From Rufibacter ruber (GTDB lineage: Bacteria; Bacteroidota; Bacteroidia; Cytophagales; Hymenobacteraceae), in the NCBI RefSeq assembly GCF_001647275.1, contig NZ_LRMM01000005.1, positions 62,001-126,000 on the forward strand: a stretch of 64,000 bases of DNA. Reading direction: 5' to 3'. The position numbers and the translations under genes are program-made. Under the pieces are notes generated by a model that made no database searches, was not told the origin of the DNA, and saw only the letters and a program-made list of their open reading frames with translations. Shown here piece by piece: positions 3,211 through 62,648 of the stretch (its first letter is position 1; each line of letters begins with the position of its first letter).

Positions 3211-3590
3211 TTGTCATCCTGAAAGTACCTTGTGGGCAAACTAGATAGGCAAAAGCCATGAAACTGCACAATTACTTTGTCTATATCACAAGTAACCCAA
3301 GTAAAACTGTTTTATACACAGGTGTGAACACCGATTTGGAATCACGTTTACAGCAACATAAAGAGAACAGAGGAAAGCCTGAAACTTTTGCTGGCAAATA
3401 CTATGGTTACAAATTACTGTATTATGAGAGGCATTCAAATGTAGAGCATGCCATTGAACGCGAGAAGGAGATAAAACTGATGGGGCGGGAAGCGAAGGAA
3501 AATTTGATAAAGACTATGAATCCGAAGATGGACTTCCTGTACATAGCCAACTGATTGCAGTTCGCCCACAAGGTCCTTTCAGGATGACAA
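3211..3590 (+). mobile_element. compact GIY-YIG nuclease element with terminal inverted repeats
   Basis: A GIY-YIG ORF is bracketed by 32-bp inverted repeats: 3211-3242, and the reverse complement of 3559-3590, matching at 30 of 32 positions. The repeats begin TTGTCATCCTGAAAG. Nothing else lies inside: the left repeat is followed 15 bp later by the ATG, and the right repeat begins 4 bp after the stop. Two gene-less relatives with the same ends lie at 41114-41211 and 62558-62648. No target-site duplication could be recognised. The element separates mutA from mutB. That it moves is inference. Confidence 0.7.
3258..3554 (+). CDS. GIY-YIG nuclease family protein (UvrC/URI type)
   Basis: 98 residues, the usual size of stand-alone GIY-YIG domains. 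YFVYITSNPSKTVLYTG near the N-terminus supplies the two strands of the GIY-YIG core (here VYI and YTG). An Arg follows in DLESRLQQHK, and the conserved helix is HAIEREKEIKLMGREAK with the metal-binding Glu. It ends with the typical MNPKMDFL. Many Bacteroidota carry numerous small paralogues of this type without known role. Here the gene sits exactly inside inverted repeats, which suggests that the nuclease and the repeat form one unit. Confidence 0.92.
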   Translation: MKLHNYFVYITSNPSKTVLYTGVNTDLESRLQQHKENRGKPETFAGKYYGYKLLYYERHSNVEHAIEREKEIKLMGREAKENLIKTMNPKMDFLYIAN

Positions 3591-5825: not shown

Positions 5826-5833
5826 ACTTATTT

Positions 5834-5970
5834 CTGGCGCGCGTCTCCAGACTCGTGACACGGGATGAGTGGAGTCTCCAGACTCCCTTTCGCCAATACC
5901 CTGCCCGTGGTTCCCGGCGAGTCTGGAGACTCGCGTCATCCTTTGGCACGAGACTAAAGTCTCGCGCCAG
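5834..5970 (+). repeat. REP cluster, left flank of RAYT gene
   Basis: 137 bp with four short hairpins built on GTCT/AGAC: GCGTCTCCAGACTCG, GGAGTCTCCAGACTCC, GCGAGTCTGGAGACTCGC and CGAGACTAAAGTCTCG. Both ends read CTGGCGCG/CGCGCCAG. It is an inverted copy of 6641-6777, with the same length. It starts 8 bp after the mutB stop. Confidence 0.9.
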
Positions 5971-5990
5971 TTAACACGGTTAACATCTTA

Positions 5991-6069: not shown

Positions 6070-6621
6070 ATGAGCACCAAGTATAAAATATCCAATCCGG
6101 AAGGGATTTATTTCCTGAGCATGGCCACTGTGGAGTGGGTAGATGTTTTTACGCGGCGTGAATACTGTGTGATCATTGTGGAGAGTTTACGCTTCTGCAT
6201 CGAACGGAAAGGGTTGATCCTCCACGCGTGGGTCACCATGCCCAACCATCTACACCTGATCGCCTCAGCGGAGGAGAACAAGGAATTAGCGTCTATTTTA
6301 CGCGATTTCAAGAAGTTTACGGCGACCAAGCTCCTCACGGCTATTCAAGAAAGCCCTATGGAAAGCCGGAAACGATGGATGCAATGGATCTTCCAAAGCA
6401 ACGGAGCGCGTAACTCCCAAAACACGCACTACCAGTTCTGGCAGCAAAGCAACCATCCGCAGGAGCTGGACTCCAACTTCCTGATGTCCCAGAAACTGGA
6501 CTACCTGCACCAGAACCCGGTGGAAGCAGGACTAGTAGAAGAACCCGACTACTGGCGCTACAGCAGCGCCGTTGATTATGTCGGCGGAAAAGGCTTACTC
6601 CCATTGGTGTTTCTGGAGTAA
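6070..6621 (+). CDS. REP-associated tyrosine transposase (RAYT, Y1_Tnp/IS200-like)
   Basis: 183 residues. HAWVTMPNHLHLI contains the HUH metal-binding pair His60/His62, and the C-terminal YLHQNPVEAGLV carries the likely nucleophile Tyr145, followed by the family's WRYSSA. RAYTs nick and join DNA at REP hairpins and are usually single-copy, domesticated relatives of IS200/IS605 transposases. All key residues are intact and its REP flanks are well matched, so it may still be functional. Confidence 0.93.
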   Translation: MSTKYKISNPEGIYFLSMATVEWVDVFTRREYCVIIVESLRFCIERKGLILHAWVTMPNHLHLIASAEENKELASILRDFKKFTATKLLTAIQESPMESRKRWMQWIFQSNGARNSQNTHYQFWQQSNHPQELDSNFLMSQKLDYLHQNPVEAGLVEEPDYWRYSSAVDYVGGKGLLPLVFLE

Positions 6622-6640
6622 GAAAGCTAACTGGCCCCAT

Positions 6641-6777
6641 CTGGCGCGAGACTAAAGTCTCGTGCCAAAGGATGTTGCGAGTCTCCAGACTCGCCGGGAA
6701 CCATGATCAGGAATGCACGCATAAGGAGTCTGAAGACTCCACCCATCCCGTGTCACGCGTCTGAAGACGCGCGCCAG
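6641..6777 (-). repeat. REP cluster, right flank of RAYT gene
   Basis: 137 bp, the inverted counterpart of 5834-5970. Compensated changes appear in several hairpins, e.g. GTCTTCAGACGCG here against GTCTCCAGACTCG on the left. It starts 19 bp after the RAYT stop. Confidence 0.9.
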
Positions 6778-6780
6778 TGG

Positions 6781-22635: not shown

Positions 22636-22672
22636 CCCGGTGTTATTTTAAAGTTCTTCCCAGACAGAGATG

Positions 22673-22718
22673 GTTCTGTTTTTGACCTGTTTTCCAAAAA
22701 ACAGGTCAAAAACAGAAC
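22673..22718. repeat. CTGTTTT palindrome, copy 16
   Basis: Core GACCTGTTTT / AAAACAGGTC and outer GTTCTGTTTT / AAAACAGAAC: an A-T pair has replaced the usual G-C pair on both sides. It belongs to the plus-strand esterase side of the convergent gap. Confidence 0.95.
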
Positions 22719-41113: not shown

Positions 41114-41211
41114 TTGTCATCCTAAAAGGATCTTAGGGAACAGTGAGCGAACTAGATAAGCTCTTCTTGACAGCAACTGCCGTTCGCAGCCTAGGTCCTT
41201 TTTGAATGACA
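41114..41211. repeat. solo copy of the GIY-YIG element termini
   Basis: 98 bp, TTGTCATCCTAAAAGGATCT on the left and CTTTTTGAATGACA on the right, with GAGCGAACTAGATAAGC and GCCGTTCGC inside. Its ends match those of 3211-3590, but the nuclease gene is absent. Imperfect inverted repeat. Confidence 0.7.
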
Positions 41212-62470: not shown

Positions 62471-62488
62471 TTCAACAAAAGAGAAAAA

Positions 62489-62528
62489 CCGTTTTCGGGC
62501 TGTTTTTCTGAAAACAGGCCAAAAACGG
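62489..62528. repeat. CTGTTTT palindrome, copy 38
   Basis: CCGTTTTCGGGCTGTTTTT / AAAACAGGCCAAAAACGG, the mazG-side copy of a convergent pair. Confidence 0.85.
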
Positions 62529-62557
62529 GAATTTAGCCAGCATCACGCCTCCCCTCT

Positions 62558-62648
62558 TTGTCAATCTGGAAGAATCTTAGGGAACAGTGGGCGAACTAGA
62601 AAAGCGGTAGCTATTACCGTTCGCCACCGGGATCCTTTCAGGATGACA
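62558..62648. repeat. solo copy of the GIY-YIG element termini
   Basis: 91 bp: TTGTCAATCTGGAAGAATCT left and GATCCTTTCAGGATGACA right, inside GGGCGAACTAGAAAAGC and ACCGTTCGCC. The right end is almost identical to that of the nuclease element at 3211-3590. Confidence 0.72.

Follow-up and report, generated by a model that had tools for sequence, protein, structure and literature searches.

The window, a stretch of 64,000 nucleotides of the Rufibacter ruber genome, contains a small GIY-YIG nuclease gene enclosed by two inverted, tagged hairpins. Each end has the form YGTC-AT-NNN...NNN'-AT-C, and two such hairpins in inverted orientation make up a doublet. Some doublets enclose a small conserved GIY-YIG gene, and related species differ in whether a given site is occupied, both for elements that have the gene and for those that do not. 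We consider it fairly probable that this is a REP-like family with the GIY-YIG nuclease as its dedicated partner, in parallel to the GTAG REPs and their RAYTs and with an unrelated enzyme. The further proposal of a transposase-less class of bacterial mobile DNA, in which REP doublets spread through the action of a lone GIY-YIG domain that recognises the tagged hairpin, is made tentatively and could well fail.

The window gene is located in a gap between genes, 15 and 4 bp from the two ends (Table 1). When a 297-bp gap was placed at random 60 times, the best 32-mer pairing in its 60-nt flanks reached at most 18 matches (median 15), against the 30 observed. This pairing and the Pfam match confirmed the 98-residue ORF between 32-bp inverted repeats reported in the initial annotation, and the two gene-less loci reported with it were found in place with the same kind of ends.

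Table 1. Features of the gene-bearing element and its gene-less relatives (window positions).
Feature	Position	Strand	Description
Left end	3211..3242	+	TGTC tag, imperfect hairpin ATCCT-GAA-AGTAC (3/5 pairs), subterminal CTTGTGGGCAAACT; 30/32 match to reverse complement of right end
Subterminal spacer AGATAGGCAAAAGCC	3243..3257	+	Start resembles CTAGAWARGC of gene-less copies, by eye
GIY-YIG nuclease gene	3258..3554	+	98 aa, ATG...TGA; Pfam PF01541, E 6e-12; Tyr9, Tyr20, Gly22, Arg30, Glu69 and Asn88 kept
Right end, inverted copy of left end	3559..3590	-	Hairpin ATCCT-GAA-AGGAC (4/5 pairs) and TGTC tag, minus-strand reading
Gene-less doublet, two inverted hairpin ends and short spacer	41114..41211	+	Extra AGGGAACA in left arm
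Gene-less doublet, same family	62558..62648	+	AGGGAACA likewise in left arm

In an alignment of 35 sequences, Y20, G22, E69 and N88 were invariant and Y9 and R30 were present in at least 90%. The conserved Tyr, Tyr, Arg, Glu and Asn of the window protein presumably have the catalytic roles of these residues in GIY-YIG domains. Pairwise dN/dS among 10 genes of the genus was 0.03-0.17 where dS was unsaturated, by which measure the putative GIY-YIG nuclease is under purifying selection. The nearest solved sequences were the UPF0213 GIY-YIG proteins PDB 1zg2 (E 3e-4) and 1ywl (E 0.01). NCBIfam, PADLOC and PHROGs gave weak matches only, group I intron and homing endonuclease families among them, and small GIY-YIG genes were annotated as 'GIY-YIG nuclease family protein' and nothing more. 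Five GIY-YIG matches were obtained in the genome, and two small genes have these ends: the window copy and one on contig C46, which is 71% identical to it and has the same kind of ends. By eye, the C46 element is nested within an older element that has its own ends. Frames of 605 and 422 residues belong to other types, and no such ends were seen in the 0.8 kb inspected around a frame of 106 on contig C117.

Ends of the left-end kind are present throughout the genome. The core GCGAACTAGA gave 38 hits, compared with 15 for a reversed control. A covariance model of the whole doublet was built from 16 doublets and yielded 149 rows (weakest rows E 0.055), many of them both strands of one place, which correspond to at least 98 distinct places; the true number may be higher, since scoring was confined to the best 150 of 1836 candidates. 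These are gene-less doublets of the kind for which the initial annotation proposed a search and a count. Each end contains a small hairpin, TGTC-ATYCT-n3-AGRAT, with a 5-bp stem, a 3-nt loop and the tail CTT in the window type. Thirty-five copies (70 arms) were recovered by pattern from loci in hand. The foot pairs of the stem were A-T in 46/70 and T-A in 67/70 arms, and a further stem pair, C-G or T-A, covaried within the arm ([[47,2],[3,17]], p 3e-11, not a formal test of selection since the arms are related by descent), with 47 and 17 arms concordant, 5 mixed and one other left out. Left and right arms of the same copies were independent (cross-arm p 0.43 and 0.69). Covariation therefore lies within an end and not between ends, and the unit is a REP-like hairpin; the long inverted repeat, which the initial annotation had taken as the unit, was ruled out as functional unit by the absence of cross-arm covariation. 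RNAalifold on the doublet alignment added little, with 15 pairs, two of them with changes on both sides. The base before GTC was C or T in 0.91 of 190 units of the type with stem TGC, 0.91 of 11 own-genome units and 0.93 of 15 units of the GTC type.

Gene-less and gene-bearing copies have the subterminal parts CTAGAWARGC and GTTCGCC in common, by eye, as expected if gene-less copies arose by internal deletion. Of the two gene-less copies in the window, that at 41114 is the more divergent (GAGCGAACTAGA, TGAATGACA). The AGGGAACA insert occurs in the left arm of some copies, including both of these, and its complement in the right arm of two others (L020, L028). A MITE is a short gene-less element with an autonomous partner element. 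The present family is similar in that its short copies without the gene have the same ends and subterminal sequence as those with it; it differs in that there is no transposase, and no signal of target duplication was obtained in 28 own-genome copies, for which exact junctions were lacking. The flanks of these 28 copies were pyrimidine-rich on the left and purine-rich on the right beside the tags; the pyrimidine-rich tract was not treated as general since it is weak or absent in the TGC and GTC types.

Flanks were then scored around the GIY-YIG genes of the family. A GIY-YIG match was present in 48 of 60 family genomes searched. All listed places but two were taken in, one of those two being added later, and removal of duplicates and merging of fragments left 86 genes. 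A flank was scored as positive when GTCAT and a complementary 5-nt stem, with at most one mismatch overall, lay within 150 bp and pointed toward the gene. Hairpins were found on both sides of 52 genes, with the same stem on both sides in 48; 78 had a hairpin on either side, 10 had both outward and 8 had none on either side. With zero mismatches the figures were 29 (both sides), 28 (same stem), 56 (either) and 5 (both outward). Two sets of controls were used. The first consisted of any ORF of at least 120 codons, overlaps included (95 ORFs in family loci, 522 in the named loci and 20 in the alphaproteobacterial set described below), and the stricter one of non-overlapping ORFs taken longest first (69, 430 and 20), not size-matched to the GIY-YIG gene. 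Among the 95 family ORFs none had hairpins on both sides, with or without the same stem, and 14 had one on either side; with no mismatch allowed the numbers were 0, 0 and 3. The 69 stricter controls gave 2, 2 and 13, and the 41 of them with mostly non-coding flanks gave 1, 1 and 7. The expectation that most paralogues share the repeats thus held for the presence of a hairpin and for the same stem on both sides in 48/86; it did not hold for the sequence of the repeat, other clades carrying other stems.

Stems vary by clade and are commonly CCT, TGC, GTC, GCT, TCT, CTC or TTC. Stem type was mapped on a FastTree phylogeny of 154 proteins, where the 113 proteins whose stem type is a common one required 18 changes (minimum over 500 shuffles, 51), and the family-only subset of 61 proteins needed 12, compared with 32 for shuffles. 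Hairpin type and nuclease clade go together, and part of this match may come from shared descent of whole loci. Among 13 more distant GIY-YIG relatives, of which 12 lack the catalytic Arg as judged by eye, hairpins were found on both sides in 0/13 cases and on one side in 3/13. These relatives (L289-L301) occur once per genome in 13 family genomes, end near NPNWLDLSDTL and mostly lack the catalytic Arg. Having no two-sided REP flanks, they are possibly a domesticated form.

The arrangement is not limited to Bacteroidota, the phylum named in the initial annotation. Named genomes were scanned and the best 80 loci taken, 79 of which had enough flank. Both sides were positive in 47, the same stem was present on both sides in 37, either side was positive in 70 and both hairpins were outward in 13; 9/79 had no hairpin on either side. 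The 522 first controls in these loci gave 18 (both), 1 (same stem) and 172 (either), the 430 stricter controls gave 21, 2 and 141, and the 189 of these with mostly non-coding flanks gave 20, 2 and 75. Repeat-rich genomes raise the single-sided control rate, and the argument therefore rests on the both-sided, same-stem figures. By record titles, the 37 same-stem cases among the best 80 loci include Bacteroidota, Patescibacteria, Chloroflexi, Nitrospirota, Alphaproteobacteria, Bacillota, Omnitrophica, Planctomycetes and Deltaproteobacteria, so that a gene within hairpins recurs in about nine phylum-level groups. Fifty of the best 80 loci were chosen for a count of the TGC-type repeat (GTCATTGCGAN{1,24}GCAAT) and 49 genomes were searched. 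It was present in 43/49 of these gene-holding genomes; copy numbers reached 374, against 0 or 1 for the reversed control, and seven of the positive genomes had 1-5 copies. The six genomes with zero copies (L224, L231, L246, L249, L255 and L269) have other hairpin types at the gene, L246 one only and outward; other types are likewise found at the gene in some of the genomes that do have TGC copies.

In Alphaproteobacteria the gene was present in 19/58 genomes, and of the 34 genes listed, 30 entered the test, including the L255 gene a second time. Both flanks were positive in 14 and had similar stems in 9, either flank was positive in 22, and 8 had none on either side. The 20 control ORFs gave 1, 0 and 4, unchanged under the stricter controls. 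The same proteins were found in 34 records of a plasmid collection, and 15 stretches were inspected by eye. Two-sided REP hairpins were seen at 13 of the 15 genes, for example CGTCATCCTCGGGCTTGACCCGAGGATCCA in Sinorhizobium meliloti and CGTCATCCCCGCGAAGGCGGGGATCCAG in Azospirillum lipoferum; the R. tumorigenes and Photobacterium genes of this set had no REP hairpins by eye. In the Sinorhizobium C101 and N. gonorrhoeae genes of the set at least some hairpins are outward, by eye, and those on both sides of the gonococcal gene are dRS3-like.

By eye, many of the alphaproteobacterial flanks are CGTC REPs. As described in the available sections of the 2013 survey (Di Nocera et al., 2013; PMC3733652), these REPs are defined by the same tag and an AT-footed stem, S. 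meliloti and A. lipoferum are named, and Neisseria dRS3 and Rickettsia RPE-4/RPE-6 are classed among them. The repeats described here are similar to them in the CGTC or TGTC tag, the AT stem foot, the inverted doublets and the many dispersed copies, and the flanks in Sinorhizobium, Azospirillum and other Alphaproteobacteria resemble the CGTC class by eye. Of the features given in those sections, the window element has an unpaired tag (TGTC, where CGTC, TGTC or CCTC is described), AT as the first two stem pairs, and copies that are numerous and mostly inverted doublets (at least 98 doublet places in its own genome). A stem of 8-9 bp, a loop of 4-5 and the tail CCA fit several alphaproteobacterial flanks by eye; the window type, with its shorter stem and loop and no CCA tail, is unlike the four CGTC families described there. 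No dedicated transposase is reported for the superfamily in the sections available, whereas the repeats described here have a GIY-YIG nuclease gene as partner. The REPIN model (Bertels and Rainey, 2011; PMC3116915), as far as the available text describes it, is similar in its inverted REP doublets, its low-copy gene flanked by its own REP type and its many gene-less doublets. The partner there is a Y1/HUH transposase and here a GIY-YIG nuclease, and the tag there is GTAG and here YGTC.

At the site of the window element, 15 congeners were compared, with ends accepted at up to 3 mismatches. Both ends were found in 9, one end in 3 and none in 3. An intact GIY-YIG gene was present at this site in 0/15, the congener copies lying elsewhere; by eye, the first and last codons of a GIY-YIG gene are legible there in some congeners. 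Two congeners (G012 and G017) have within the same ends, at the orthologous site, a different small ORF with a lipoprotein-like start (L159 and L167). As anticipated for empty sites in relatives, no repeat was detected for either gene-less window doublet in the corresponding intervals of 5/5 syntenic congeners, with a detector that is imperfect, since it found only one end of each window copy. The neighbouring genes of the 41114 interval differ in several congeners, and at 62558 the gap is much shorter in 4/5 congeners and holds unrelated sequence in the fifth. These gaps were too divergent for exact empty-site junctions to be obtained. In A. lipoferum the sufB-sufC gap measures 617 bp and contains an element; in three relatives, about 95% identical, it measures 87, 91 and 129 bp and has none. 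One site on Sphingobium plasmids holds REP-gene-REP, a single REP or neither, and the single REP resembles, by eye, the outer halves of the two REPs. No clean junction was found at the Azospirillum or Sphingobium sites, and about 37 kb of four Sphingobium plasmids contained one further variable doublet and one common to all, again with no clean junction. Together with the nested C46 copy, presence and absence between relatives indicate mobility.

Copies of the repeat also occur apart from the gene. Ten genomes of the genus with a GIY-YIG match have 13-57 copies, and three of the ten have broken genes only. Among 16 TGC-rich genomes (at least 6 copies), 7 are without a TGC-flanked gene, one with 136 copies, and 2 of 9 matching genes in this set are broken. 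On contig C8 of G026, the listed hits were resolved by hand into 12 inverted pairs and one single. Copy number was associated with gene presence (Fisher p 8e-7 and 2e-5), a result given little weight because a type-flanked gene already implies copies of that type. That the element is self-contained and mobilised by its own nuclease, as the initial annotation proposed, we infer at most, because four congeners without a GIY-YIG match carry 35, 21, 7 and 40 copies. Overall that interpretation is partly supported, and the check it proposed, on flanks, empty sites and solo copies, came out mostly positive.

Each gene lineage has its own hairpin type in many bacteria, and the gene thus looks like the missing partner of a widespread repeat class. 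From these patterns we infer the chemistry of cutting, copying and insertion as follows. The nuclease would recognise hairpins of its own type, most likely as single strands or as extruded cruciforms, and would cut at or beside the YGTC tag. The cut would initiate the transfer of the doublet to new intergenic positions, by copying or excision, through host repair or replication. Internal deletion of gene-bearing doublets would produce gene-less doublets, which would be moved in trans, and the gene would decay in place while the ends persist longer. GIY-YIG domains act by hydrolysing DNA, and no DNA-joining activity is known for them; copying would therefore need other proteins.

The nuclease could instead have a host function, as an enzyme that processes hairpins or cruciforms for repair or for REP stability, its own REPs being regulatory and dispersed by other means. 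Purifying selection on the nuclease, the 0-5 GIY-YIG matches per genome and the action of the GIY-YIG enzyme SLX1 on branched DNA, as given in the available text of PMC8287910, are in keeping with such a function. The gene has no fixed locus, however, as the window's site shows, and the REP-free distant relatives mostly lack the catalytic Arg; we regard this explanation as unlikely.

Somewhat less likely still is a homing-type selfish gene, whose nuclease would cut pre-existing REP sites that lack the gene, the gene being copied in by recombination between REP ends and being the one part that spreads, from each REP to the next. Homing would fit the nested copy at C46, the finding that two relatives have one REP alone at the Sphingobium site, and the weak similarity to group I intron and homing endonuclease families. 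It leaves the origin of new REP sites unexplained, and what relatives lack at the sufB-sufC gap and the two window sites is the whole doublet.

It is improbable that the repeats are moved by another transposase, of RAYT or IS200/605 type, with the GIY-YIG gene as cargo that was picked up between two REPs. Cargo can evidently be carried, given the different ORF within the same ends in G012 and G017, and the genome has four Y1 transposase genes, one of them in the window. The left motif of the repeat was nevertheless absent at 4/4 Y1 loci (3.2-3.3 kb each), which have other repeats beside them by eye, and this flank evidence disfavours a RAYT as the mover in this genome. Nor was a tyrosine transposase gene with CGTC REP flanks found in the 2013 survey, according to its available sections (PMC3733652), and capture fails to explain one gene family with matched stems across the phylum-level groups listed above. 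Plain intergenic hairpins (terminators) lying by chance beside small genes are abundant, as the single-sided rates in the named-loci controls show, but the same-stem excess on both sides in family and named loci (48/86 and 37/79) and the agreement of stem type with the protein tree make this account very hard to credit.

If the proposed partnership of nuclease and hairpin is correct, the CGTC/TGTC REPs found across many phyla, GTCATTGCGAG...CGAAGCAATC among them, would be GIY-YIG-driven elements, and REP-type repeats would have arisen with two unrelated enzyme classes. The available sections of the 2013 survey (PMC3733652) do not settle whether an enzyme spreads CGTC REPs, and if so which one, and small GIY-YIG genes are common in the family genomes. 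Linking the two gives a testable function to both, and the many natural pairs of enzyme and hairpin, with their differing stems, could be used for studies of specificity. No paper tying GIY-YIG genes to REPs was found in the literature searched, with bioRxiv and most subscription journals outside its scope, and the words GIY-YIG and GIY were absent from the available text of PMC6006769, PMC12306157 and PMC10969869.

Other repeats were also recorded in the window. A different hairpin family, CTGTTTTNGGCCTGTTTTTCNNAAAACAGGCCNAAAACAG (for example at 225-273, 22668-22716 and 62476-62529), has 36-39 copies (repeat finder families D1 and D2). Duplicated repeats of another type, at 5833-5971 and 6640-6778 (TCTGGCGCG...CTCCAGACTC), enclose the Y1 transposase (RAYT-like) gene at 6070-6621, which lies some 2.3 kb away from the GIY-YIG element. 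In Planktothrix (L316, 1201-1485), a GIY-YIG gene has a type IIL restriction gene (MmeI) on one side and drmA of DISARM on the other.
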